Source of the DNA: Bradyrhizobium sp.
Lineage (GTDB): Bacteria > Pseudomonadota > Alphaproteobacteria > Rhizobiales > Xanthobacteraceae
Length of the DNA stretch: 34,244 nt
Direction: 5' to 3'
NCBI GenBank assembly: GCA_021732175.1
Contig: JAKFVP010000559.1
Location: forward strand, 1 to 34,244
A model generated the notes under the pieces. That model saw only the letters and a list, made by a program, of their open reading frames with translations. It ran no database searches and was not told the DNA's origin. The first letter of the stretch is position 1. Every line of letters starts with the position of its first letter. The position numbers were made by a program, and so were the translations under genes. Positions 19,579 to 24,903 of this stretch are shown one piece after another.

Positions 19579-20097
19579 ATGACCGATGATACGATTCTGC
19601 CCTTCTCATTTCCAGCCGTTCACACCAAGAAAATTACAGCTGCCTTCGATGGCGGTCGCCTGACCTCGAATGGGGGCGTGATGCTTCTGGCGATGGCCGA
19701 GCGGCGTCTCGGTTTGGCCGACAAGTTGGCCCGGATGTTCCCGGATCGGCGCGACCCGACGCGGGTCGTGCACAGCCTTGTCGATATGTTCCGCGCTCGC
19801 ATGTTTGCGATCTGCTGCGGCTACGAGGACGCCGACGATCTCGACCATCTGCGGTCCGATCCGGCGTTCAAGCTGGCCTGCGGACGGCTGCCGGACAGCG
19901 GTCGCGATCTGTGTTCTCAACCGACGCTGTCGCGCCTGGAGAATGCTCCACGCCTGCGCGACGTGATCCGCCTGACCTACACTTTGGTCGACGCATGGAT
20001 GGATAAAGCCGTAACCGCGCGGCCACGTGGATTTGGATCACTCAAATACCAAAATGCTGGAACAGAAGCGGGGACGGCAACCCTGGGGGAGGTGTGA
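19579..20097 (+). pseudogene. IS1380-like transposase, N-terminal fragment (homology ends near 20003)
   Basis: FDGGRLTSNGGVMLLAMAERRLGLADKLARMFPDRRDPTRVVHSLVDMFRARMFAICCGYEDADDLDHLRSDPAFKLACGRLPDSG...LCSQPTLSRLENAP is typical; after VDAWMD the sequence becomes unrelated and stops. Confidence 0.85.
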
Positions 20098-20105
20098 TTG
20101 TCGTC

Positions 20106-20345
20106 TCAGTCAAATGCGACGCCAATCCGTTTCTCTTTTCGCCATTTGACATGACACGGTCGGCTTAGCTGATCTGCCTCTATAACCAGTCTGAACTCGT
20201 GAGGAATGCCTAGCGGACTTTCGACGTCCAGGGCGGCGCCGCTCGCCGACAAGTTCCGCACGGTACAGCTAATACCACCCCCACCGAATTCTATCGTCCC
20301 GGCTTTCAGCACGCGATGTCGAGGCGCGGTACGTTTGTTGTCCAT
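20106..20345 (-). CDS. PilZ-domain protein (start MDNKRTAPRHR; ORF extends to 20408)
   Basis: RTAPRHRVLKAGTIEF...CTVRNLSASGAALDVESPLGIPHEFRLVIE...CHVKWRKEKRIGVAF. Confidence 0.82.
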   Translation of the reverse strand: MDNKRTAPRHRVLKAGTIEFGGGGISCTVRNLSASGAALDVESPLGIPHEFRLVIEADQLSRPCHVKWRKEKRIGVAFD

Positions 20346-20681: not shown

Positions 20682-21330
20682 ATGGCGGCGCAACACAACC
20701 GGGCAAGAATGTTCGCGGTACTGAGCGCGACCAACGAAGCGATCTTACGGAGCACTTCCGAACAAGATCTCTATCAAGATGTTTGTAATGCTGCGGTTGA
20801 TGGCGGCAAATTTCTGGGCACGGCCATTTTCCTGATCGAGGACGACTCTTCGTGGTTCCGGATGGCCGCTGGGGCCGGTCCCTTCGTTCATTTGATCGAG
20901 CAACTTCGTTTTTCTTCTGATGCCACCATTCCGCACGGTCAGGGACTCGGTGGCGAGGCGTTTCGCACGGCCAGACCGTGCATTAGCAGCGATGTTCTCA
21001 ACGATCCCAGAACCCAACCGTGGAAGGAACTGGCCGCGAGCGCGGGCCTGACGGCGAGTGCCGTGCTGCCTCTCCTTCGAGACGGCCAAGCGGACAAGAC
21101 ATTGGCACGATAGCCCAATTCCCATCAGATCTGGAGCCGGCCTACCCCTATTGAGAAATGGAGAAGCGGTTGGCGTCCTGCTCTTCCTGTCGAGCGAAAC
21201 GGATGTGTTTACCCCAGAATTTATGAAGCTGCTGGGGCGGCTTGCTGACAACGTATCATTCGCGATGGAAATGCTGGAGCGTGAGGACGCCCGACGCGCT
21301 GCAGAGCAAGCTAAGGACCGGCTGACGCGG
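20682..21330 (+). pseudogene. GAF-domain sensor fragment, frameshifted and truncated
   Basis: First frame FAVLSATNEAILRSTSEQDLYQDVCNAAVDGGKF...SAVLPLLRDG, second frame GAGLPLLRNGEAVGVLLFLSSETDVFTPEFMKLLGRLADNVSFAMEMLEREDARRAAEQAKDRLTRM. Confidence 0.78.
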
Positions 21331-21331
21331 A

Positions 21332-21503
21332 TGCCCCGTCAACGACTTCATGACCAAGAACGGAAGCATCCGCGACGACGGCCGCATGATGCGCGACATG
21401 TACCTTTTGCAGACCAAGAAGCCGTCGGAATCGAAGGGCGAGTGGGACCTGATGAACGCCGCCGCGACCATTCCGGCTGAGGTAGCGTATCGGTCGCTCG
21501 CGG
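21332..21503 (+). pseudogene. C-terminal fragment of a Liv/urea-type ABC substrate-binding protein
   Basis: CPVNDFMTKNGSIRDDGRMMRDMYLLQTKKPSESKGEWDLMNAAATIPAEVAYRSLAD resembles the C-terminus of branched-chain amino-acid-type SBPs; fused to the GAF fragment. Confidence 0.7.
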
Positions 21504-22078
21504 ACCCGCCCAATGGCGCCGAGCACCTTCCCGTCCCTCTTGATGGGAATGCGGGAAACGACTCTGTCTCCGCCGCGCATGCGCTGAATTTTCCCGACCT
21601 CGGCCTTGCCCGTGGCCACGATCTCATGCAGTCGCGTGTTGTCGATGACGGTCTCGACCGGGCGTCCGTTTCCTTCGCCGGCCTTCAGCCCGAAAAACGC
21701 TTCGTGGATCGGAGAAATGTAGACGATCTTGGCCTTGTCATCGACGATCGTCATGGCGTCGAACGGATCCGTCAGCAGGTGCTGCAGGATGTCTCAGGAG
21801 AAATCGACGCTGCCGATGAAGCTGAGAAGTGCGTCGCCCGGCGTTTCGCTGAGAACGAGCATCTCTCTGGACCCGGCCGGAGTGACCAGCACCATGTAGA
21901 TCTTGCGATCGAGATTCAGCGTCGTGATGCGCCGCTCGCGGGCCTCGGCCATCCATGCCTGATCTGCGGTCAACGAATTCAGACGTGGATCGGAGCCCAC
22001 GCCGACCGAAGCGATTACACGAGCCGCAGCGTCGAAGAGAAGCACACCGGCAATCGTGGCGGTAATCGGATTAGGCAT
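21503..22078 (-). pseudogene. PAS-containing N-terminal portion of a probable sigma-54-dependent regulator, one in-frame stop then truncated
   Basis: MPNPITATIAGVLLFDAAARVIASVGVG...LSFIGSVDFS*DILQHLLTDPFDAMTIVDDKAKIVYISPIHEAFFGLKAGEGNGRPVETVIDNTRLHEIV...; same frame on both sides of the TGA at 21794-21796. Confidence 0.7.
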
Positions 22079-22080
22079 TT

Positions 22081-22157
22081 CCTCAGTGTCCTTGTTGAGG
22101 ACACGTGAGCACAGTGAGGACGCCGCTCAAGAAACTTTGCCGCTCCTGAGGACACAA
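22081..22157. promoter_or_regulatory. Cluster of four TGAGGAC-type repeats, candidate enhancer (UAS) for a sigma-54 activator
   Basis: cctcagtgtcc (22081, inverted), ttgaggacacgtgag (22095), agtgaggacgcc (22113), cctgaggacacaa (22145); upstream of a sigma-54 promoter. Confidence 0.6.
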
Positions 22158-22227
22158 ATTTAAGAGGCTCCAAAGGCTACCCCTGCAAAACAAGGAGTTC
22201 CACGACCCAGGAGCAGCAGCGGCGAAA

Positions 22228-22243
22228 TGGCACGGGTGTTGCT
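22228..22243 (+). promoter_or_regulatory. Sigma-54 (-24/-12) promoter
   Basis: TGGCACGGGTGTTGCT matches TGGCACR-N4-TTGCW at every specified base; 62 bp before the [11 protein letters not shown] start. Confidence 0.8.
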
Positions 22244-22304
22244 GATGTCTGGATAGCAGCAACGCCCATGAAGGCAGTTCTCGAATGCTGCATTGCGAGA
22301 TAGG

Positions 22305-22850
22305 ATGAAACCGTACTTAACTCTCCATCACCCTGCGAGCGCGCAGCGCTACTACAGCGAACGGATGGTGGCGCGAAGACACCTTCTACAGTCTGCTCAC
22401 CAGTCATGCGACCGAGCGGCCTGATGCCGTGGCGCTGCAGGATGCTCGCCAAACGCTGACGTGGGGTGAGCTCAAGCGTTGGACGGACGGTGTCGCGGCA
22501 GATCTGCGCGAATACGGGCTGGTCGGCAGCGACCGCGTGATGATGTGGTTGTCCAACCGCATCGAGGCGGTCGTCATGTTCCTCGCCTGCGCGCGTGAAG
22601 GGATCGCCTGCAACCCCTCGGTCCACAAGACCTACACATGCGCCGAGGTCGGCGACCTTCTCAACACGCTGTCGGCGCGGGCGCTTCTGACTGAAGACGG
22701 TTGGGGGACCGACCGTGCGACCGTCGACTACGGCTGGTTTCTATCCGGAGATCTTGGCGTCATGGACGCCAAAGGCAATCTCCGCATCGAGGGGCGCCTC
22801 AAGGACCTGATAATCCGGGGCGGCCACAACATCTATCCGTCGCACTGGCT
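22305..22850 (+). pseudogene. Acyl-CoA ligase (ANL family) remnant with frameshift, large internal deletion and 3' truncation
   Basis: [19 protein letters not shown] then a frame shift to [41 protein letters not shown]...[14 protein letters not shown] joined to [40 protein letters not shown]. Confidence 0.85.
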
Positions 22851-22891
22851 TCTTTCTTACTTATCGCGGCCATGCGGACAGCCAACGTGCG

Positions 22892-22907
22892 TGGCACACG
22901 CTTTGCT
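22892..22907 (+). promoter_or_regulatory. Sigma-54 (-24/-12) promoter upstream of the Bug/TctC gene
   Basis: TGGCACACGCTTTGCT matches TGGCACR-N4-TTGCW at every specified base; 35 bp upstream of ATG 22942. Confidence 0.78.
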
Positions 22908-22941
22908 GACTACCAAAAAATAATGACTTCGGGAGGGTTAC

Positions 22942-23910
22942 ATGAAGAGTTGGTCGGCAATCGTTGGCGCTCTGATCCTAAGCTCGCTACCTATGGCTGT
23001 GTTGGCTGATACGTACCCGTCAAAGCCGATACGGTTGATTATCCCATTTGCTGCGGGTGGCCCGACAGACGCGCTTGGGCGAACGTTCGCTAAGGAACTC
23101 GGGGAAGTACTTGGACAAACAGTCGTCGTCGAGAACAGAACTGGCGCGGGCGGAAACATTGGAACGGACGCCGTCGCCAAGTCCCCTCCAGACGGCTACA
23201 CGATCGGCTTCGGCACGAATGGACCGCTCGCAGGCAATGTCACGCTCTTCAAGTCGCTGCCTTATGATCCGACCACGGCATTCGCCCCAATCACCCGCAT
23301 CGCGTTCGTATCGAACTTAATCGCAGTGCATCCTGCTCTGGGTGTGAAAACGTTGAGCGAACTGATTGAGTTGATTCGAAGAGAGCCCAACAAGCACAAT
23401 TTCGCGCACGGAGGCTCAGGCACTACACAGCATCTCGGCGGAGAGCTGTTCAAATCGATGGCGCAGCTGCAGATGAGCGGTGTGGCTTATCGTGGCGAAG
23501 GGCCCGCGCTTAATGACGTTATTGCGGGTCATGTCCCGATCATCTTTTTGAGTCTTGCGACCGGCATCCCCATCGTGCAGTCGGGTCACCTCATCGCGCT
23601 GGCGGTGACTTCGAAGGATCGCATTCCGGCTCTCGCTAACATTCCGACGGTGGCTGAAGCTGCCCTGCCAGGGTATGTTGCAACAGCTTGGTACGCGCTG
23701 CTCGCGCCTGCCGGTACTCCACAGCAAATAGTTGAGAAGCTGAATGCCGCTTCTCGCAAGGCCATGGAGTCTCCTGGGACGAAGAAGCTTCTCGATCAAG
23801 CCGGAGCGATTACTGCCCCCACCACACCCGGCGAGCTTGGCGAGTTCATCAAGAGTGAAATCAGTCGTTGGAAGCCAATCATTGAGATGTCTGGCGCCAA
23901 AGTCGACTGA
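22942..23910 (+). CDS. Bug/TctC-type tripartite tricarboxylate transporter substrate-binding protein
   Basis: Signal peptide, then YPSKPIRLIIPFAAGGPTDALGR...VVVENRTGAGGNIGTDAVAKSPPDGYTIGFG; full length. Confidence 0.93.
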   Translation: MKSWSAIVGALILSSLPMAVLADTYPSKPIRLIIPFAAGGPTDALGRTFAKELGEVLGQTVVVENRTGAGGNIGTDAVAKSPPDGYTIGFGTNGPLAGNVTLFKSLPYDPTTAFAPITRIAFVSNLIAVHPALGVKTLSELIELIRREPNKHNFAHGGSGTTQHLGGELFKSMAQLQMSGVAYRGEGPALNDVIAGHVPIIFLSLATGIPIVQSGHLIALAVTSKDRIPALANIPTVAEAALPGYVATAWYALLAPAGTPQQIVEKLNAASRKAMESPGTKKLLDQAGAITAPTTPGELGEFIKSEISRWKPIIEMSGAKVD

Positions 23911-23975
23911 CGAGCCGGTAGGACTTCTTGCGCGTCCAACCCCAAATGTGCTCGCACTCCCGAAACTAACGACGC

Positions 23976-23991
23976 TGGTACTTTTATTGCT
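23976..23991 (+). promoter_or_regulatory. Degenerate sigma-54-like promoter
   Basis: TGGTACTTTTATTGCT keeps GG-N10-GC spacing; 52 bp before the second [11 protein letters not shown] start. Confidence 0.45.
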
Positions 23992-24042
23992 CAGGCTTTC
24001 ACAAAGAGAACTTGAAGCACCGTGTTGCATTGCGAGATAGGG

Positions 24043-24102
24043 ATGAAACCGTACTTAACCCTCCATCACCCTGCGAGTGCGCAGCGCTACTACAGCGAGT
24101 TC
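24043..24102 (+). pseudogene. Second copy of the acyl-CoA ligase 5' end, truncated after about 20 codons
   Basis: atgaaaccgtacttaaccctccatcaccctgcgagtgcgcagcgctactacagcga is nearly identical to 22305-22359. Confidence 0.82.
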
Positions 24103-24103
24103 G

Positions 24104-24358
24104 CGTGTCATGACGTACCGGCTCGCGTCCCTCATGGACAAGGGCGTCGCGCCGAATACGGCCGCGGCGGTGACGAAGATATTCGCCACCGAAAGCAATT
24201 CCAAGTGCGCCGATGCCGGCATCCAGATCATGGGCGGCGCGGGACTGATGATGAGTTCGGAAATGCAGATGTATTTCCGCGATTCCAGGGTCGGAACGAT
24301 AGGCGGAGGCACCAGCGAAATCCTCCGCAACGTGATCGCCAAGTCAATGCTCTCATAG
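24104..24358 (+). pseudogene. Acyl-CoA dehydrogenase C-terminal fragment
   Basis: YRLASLMDKGVAPNTAAAVTKIFATESNSKCADAGIQIMGGAGLMMSSEMQMYFRDSRVGTIGGGTSEILRNVIAKSM. Confidence 0.83.
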
Positions 24359-24768: not shown

Positions 24769-24903
24769 ATGAGAAGGGCTATTTGGGGCGTGCTGATAAT
24801 TTCGGTGGTTAGCGCCTTCGGCGGCGTTGCCTCGGCGCAGGTGTCCGATGAGGTTGTGCGTCTGGGCGTACTTGACGATATGACCAGCCGCGTTTTAGAC
24901 TAG
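24769..24903 (+). pseudogene. N-terminal fragment of an ABC substrate-binding protein
   Basis: MRRAIWGVLIISVVSAFGGVASAQVSDEVVRLGVLDDMTSRVLD*: signal peptide plus first strand, then stop. Confidence 0.6.

Follow-up and report, generated by a model that had tools for sequence, protein, structure and literature searches.

A full-consensus sigma-54 promoter before an intact bug/tctC gene in Bradyrhizobium sp., probably orphaned in a decayed activator and acyl-CoA ligase regulon

In the stretch of Bradyrhizobium sp. DNA analyzed here (the window, 34,244 nucleotides), an intact bug/tctC gene stands directly behind a -24/-12 element, which we call P2, and among the remnants of other genes. The locus contains the following features.

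21503-22078, minus strand: truncated pseudogene of a divergent sigma-54 activator (EBP), sensor part only, ~190 residues
22086-22155, no strand: UAS-like cluster, with AGGACACGTGAGCA at 22098-22111 and half-sites at 22086, 22097, 22116 and 22148
22228-22243, plus strand: P1, predicted sigma-54 promoter of the ligase remnant, zero mismatches, with a counterpart at the same position before the intact ligases of relatives
22305-22845, plus strand: acyl-CoA ligase pseudogene, by tblastn against intact P0003
22846-22891, plus strand: 46 nt that separate the ligase remnant from P2, lacking the dyad that would be expected 63-65 nt before the -24
22892-22907, plus strand: P2, predicted sigma-54 -24/-12 promoter of bug, TGGCACACGCTTTGCT, zero mismatches to TGGCAC-N5-TTGCW
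22930-22936, plus strand: ribosome-binding site of bug, GGGAGGG, assigned from sequence
22942-23910, plus strand: bug/tctC, intact, 322 aa, signal-peptide-like N terminus, Pfam PF03401 (TctC) at 2.3e-67
23976-23991, plus strand: P3, a third -24/-12 element, TGGTACTTTTATTGCT, with one mismatch (TGGTAC; L043 has TGGCAC and so the full consensus)
24043-24099, plus strand: second copy of the ligase N terminus (97% 58-nt repeat), followed by an acyl-CoA dehydrogenase-like remnant (tblastn)

Full -24/-12 matches occur twice in the window (22228 and 22892), whereas its base composition leads one to expect 0.03 by chance. Genome-wide, we counted 14 full-consensus sites versus 5 for a reversed control pattern (~4e-5 per 100 nt per strand). 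A scan that allowed two mismatches performed at chance (23 versus 17.5), so only sites with zero or one mismatch were counted. These results uphold a sequence-only reading of the same DNA, which had proposed a second full-consensus sigma-54 promoter right before an intact Bug/TctC gene. The closeness to the ATG at 22942 that it described stands as well, but the spacing is 34 nt by our count instead of 35 bp. It had also explained the apparent C terminus of the upstream ligase ORF (22429-22923) as promoter DNA read as protein, and this stretch is indeed the promoter translated in frame. From the -12 position of P2, transcription is predicted to start near 22918, which would give bug a leader of ~24 nt. 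P2 is identical in L043 and in the copies of the same region, and P3 stands after bug and before the second copy of the ligase N terminus.

The PF03401 match spans residues 47-317 of the bug product, which is a full-length member of the TctC/Bug family with a signal peptide judged by eye. The tctAB genes do not lie beside bug, and four TctA copies lie elsewhere in the genome; the absence of adjacent tctAB is shared with the orphan Bug/TctC proteins (PMC5812351). Between the window and L043 the gene has accumulated 15 synonymous and 12 non-synonymous changes (dN 0.017, dS 0.063), for a dN/dS of ~0.27 that rests on 27 changes. The sequence-only reading had suggested checking whether orthologous bug genes have a promoter of this kind; of 163 bug-like matches that we examined, none but the five copies of this locus did. 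One-mismatch -24/-12 sites occur at two other bug-like genes versus 0.9 expected by chance. Our search found no relative having bug behind a complete P2, and the closest outside relative, from Pollutimonas (51%), immediately follows an acyl-CoA dehydrogenase gene and has no promoter of this type. We also looked for plasmid-borne close relatives, none of which exceeded 60%. Full-text searching of the literature returned no publication describing a sigma-54 promoter at a Bug gene, which is weak evidence.

The genes upstream of bug are broken. In the ligase pseudogene, residues 1-141 (1-19 and 20-141 in different frames, with a frameshift near 22362) are joined to residues 401-438, after which the gene is cut and its homology stops at 22845, 46 nt upstream of P2. 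The EBP remnant, which aligns at 67% identity with residues 2-190 of intact P0002, has a TGA at codon 95 and contains neither an AAA+ nor an HTH domain; this truncation and stop, adjacent to the UAS-like cluster, had been missed in the sequence-only reading. L043 is 97.5% identical over 20755-24051 and has a common layout, and its match runs continuously across the EBP truncation point but has a different stop. Downstream, the acyl-CoA dehydrogenase-like remnant matches, at the DNA level, the acyl-CoA dehydrogenase region of Pollutimonas. The window also contains a truncated IS1380-family transposase at 19579-20097.

The window matches contigs from genomes assigned to two genera (G256 and G541) at >99.9% identity. 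The near-identical stretch, 99.99% in these two bins, is at least 84 kb long and has different flanks, and the match ends beyond the window, adjoining a tyrosine integrase gene (L181:16339-17724; contigs of the shared stretch, L168-L171 and L181-L187). Copies of 2 kb at 100% are also present in G445 and G553. This pattern points to a putative mobile island, and assembly error or mis-binning of metagenome bins is a less likely cause. In G541, contig L041 carries a 1.04-kb insertion (L041:4233-5268, at window 20210-20225), transposase-like by eye, that is absent from the window.

Searches with the EBP and with the DNA yielded intact relatives (L128, L129 and L161-L167) whose EBP, ligase and promoter layout is shared with the window. 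At seven of these loci (L128, L129, L162-L166) the EBP gene is divergent from the ligase gene and the latter is preceded by a -24/-12 site with 0 or 1 mismatch; L161 (in G148) has its EBP ~10 kb away, and L167 fits the pattern more loosely. Protein identities are 60-89% to the L128 EBP and 70-89% to the L128 ligase. Six loci (L128, L129, L161, L162, L164 and L165) contain an ABC solute-binding gene with a -24/-12 site of its own, which ends 31-38 nt short of the ATG, compared with 34 for bug; most of these genes have a GGGAGG leader. The geometry of P2 equals that of these promoters. The ABC family was tested in L128 (Peripla_BP_6), the other loci being assigned by similar N termini. In each of the six, a dyad (best form AGGACAYGTGTCCT), which we take as a putative UAS, lies 63-65 nt upstream of the -24 of the solute-binding-gene promoter, with scores of 14/14 in L128 and L129, 12 in L161, 11 in L162, 10 in L164 and 9 in L165. 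Because 9/14 is also reached by chance, the dyads of L164 and L165 rest on position, and the expected dyad is not strictly defined given these weak scores of 9-10/14. L166 has the binding-protein promoter, but its dyad scores only 9/14 and is spaced differently. For the ligase promoter, the top-scoring dyad lies 116-120 nt upstream in the window, L128, L129, L164, L165 and L166; the window dyad, within the UAS-like cluster, is 116 nt from P1, compared with 118-120 nt in the five relatives.

The window differs from these clusters in being decayed where they are intact, and in having a TctC/Bug-type binding protein where their sigma-54-driven binding protein is of the ABC type. Bug genes near some intact clusters lack such a promoter, unlike the window bug. 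In Bradyrhizobium strains such as DOA9 (PMC13207237), sigma-54 solute-binding promoters have the -24/-12 element tens of nucleotides before a periplasmic binding-protein gene, as at bug, and the listing includes TGGCATGCTCCTTGC at -36. A sigma-54 regulon whose binding-protein genes have their own promoters is an already known kind in this genus (PMC13207237). The DOA9 examples considered here encode ABC-type binding proteins, whereas the window gene is of the TctC/Bug type and lacks its own dyad and a known activator.

P2 has no dyad at 63-65 nt from its -24; that position falls inside the ligase remnant, and the best match in the 250 nt upstream of P2 scores 9/14, at chance level. An activator-binding site is absent from the position usual in the regulon, and the nearest UAS-like cluster lies 740 bp away, a distance that the sequence-only reading had right. 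Enhancer position is variable in general, so the missing nearby dyad does not remove P2 from the sigma-54-dependent class; judged by its sequence, P2 is a genuine promoter of the sigma-54 type and part of a sigma-54 regulon.

RpoN itself is encoded in the genome (PF04552 match, 240 bits). The activator is a different matter. In the bacterium's own genome (G000, 88% complete), the broken copy is the only match to the EBP sensor; four further EBPs turned up, all with different HTHs. Searches of G000 and of G256 (99% complete) detected no EBP that carries the cognate HTH. G256 shares the region and has only the broken copy of the cluster's EBP, and searches of G541, G445 and G553 gave no intact orthologue. 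The full dyad is likewise absent elsewhere in G000, except for one site with 1 mismatch. In G117, which carries the 97.5% allele, an intact EBP of the same family with a similar HTH (NKKRTAESLGISRSYLYRKL) is present on another contig; the bin is 81% complete with 6% contamination, and the cluster of this EBP has no -24/-12 site within one mismatch.

We consider it likely that P2 is a genuine RpoN promoter of a binding-protein gene in a decayed EBP/acyl-CoA-ligase regulon, now orphaned and most likely silent or weakly cross-activated. The full consensus far above chance, the geometry of the intact relatives and the presence of rpoN support this reading, and the broken EBP, the lack of a cognate HTH in our searches and the end of ligase homology 46 nt upstream make P2 a probable orphan. 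In the intact form, the EBP would bind dyads 63-65 nt upstream of each binding-protein promoter and another ~118 nt before that of the ligase, and once bound would drive open-complex formation. Deletions would then have taken most of the ligase and, with it, a dyad that presumably once lay upstream of P2, and would also have truncated the EBP, leaving an orphan bug that retains its ribosome-binding site, leader and core promoter. P2 can probably still be bound by E-sigma54 but has no known cognate activator in the cell. Sigma-54 promoters as a rule need an activated EBP and are otherwise silent (PMC3844500); P2 is probably idle in this bacterium unless another activator serves it. Several points weaken the orphan reading: conservation is higher in the regulatory DNA than in the remnants, as if the former were still used; an activator could have been missed in a genome that is 88% complete (G256, 99%); the weak dyads of L164 and L165 leave the expected dyad loosely defined; and our search gave no relative with bug behind a complete P2. 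With respect to conservation, the regulatory DNA (22079-22304 and 22846-22907) has 1/288 substitutions between the window and L043 versus 35/835 in the EBP and ligase remnants (p=4e-4), for stretches picked after the alignment was seen. Taken alone, P2 and its upstream 46 nt (0/62) do not differ significantly from the remnants (p=0.16), and divergence is highest in the leader that follows P2 (5/33). The same picture could arise from a recombination tract.

The sequence-only reading had suggested that bug may still be under RpoN control through the cluster 740 bp upstream. The part concerning a genuine sigma-54 promoter before bug and a resident rpoN holds; the part concerning continued reading through the cluster is not supported, given the truncated EBP pseudogene, the failure to find the cognate HTH in G000 and G256, and the relatives' own dyads at 63-65 nt. 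One natural enhancer works from 1.5 kb downstream, and enhancers placed up to 3 kb upstream have acted in constructs (PMC3844500), so 740 bp alone is no bar to activation of P2, and control by this route is possible as far as distance goes. An active P2, looped from the cluster by an activator still in the cell, would agree with such kilobase-range action, with a UAS cluster and two promoters that are present and little diverged, and with the presence of rpoN; we nevertheless judge it unlikely, given the truncation of the neighboring EBP, the failure to find a matching HTH in G000 or an intact orthologue in G256, G541, G445 or G553, and the near absence of the full dyad elsewhere in G000. Also doubtful is a host-dependent target, read in trans in hosts such as G117 that have a relative of the activator, and silent elsewhere. 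The similar HTH in G117, the conserved regulatory DNA, the dN/dS of bug and the occurrence of the region in two genera all speak for it; against these stand the incompleteness and contamination of the G117 bin, the missing -24/-12 site in the cluster of its EBP, a conservation that may stem from a recombination tract and a dN/dS drawn from few changes. A broader form of this idea, for which we see only a slim chance, is that the mobile island carries a binding-protein gene, a sigma-54 promoter and a distant enhancer without a working activator and relies on the resident activators of its recipients, with selection keeping the regulatory DNA while the neighbors decay.

Expression of bug from another promoter or by read-through, with P2 irrelevant, would suit the lack of a dyad at P2 and the Pollutimonas relative, which sits right behind an acyl-CoA dehydrogenase gene with no such promoter. 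We regard this as highly improbable; a simple scan of 22000-24200, which misses other promoter types, found no sigma-70-like promoters and no terminators. Chance similarity of P2 to the -24/-12 consensus is hardly credible. The motif is only 16 nt long and two-mismatch matches occur at chance level, but two full matches lie within 700 bp where 0.03 are expected in the window, in a sigma-54 cluster and with the regulon's leader geometry.

On the orphan reading, a perfect promoter consensus before an intact gene need not mean continued regulation, and both enhancer and activator need checking. The EBP, the dyad and the ligase and binding-protein promoters would form a candidate regulon with fixed geometry that is testable in the intact relatives. 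A scan of the combined UAS and promoter pattern across 272 genomes of the genus returned only the two known loci. At window 24769-24903, a remnant resembles by eye the N terminus of the ABC-type binding protein that the intact clusters encode (AQVSDEVVRLGVLDDM), with no preceding -24/-12 site. Further full-consensus -24/-12 sites lie before a MaoC-like dehydratase gene in L164 (near 13076) and L165 (near 13240).
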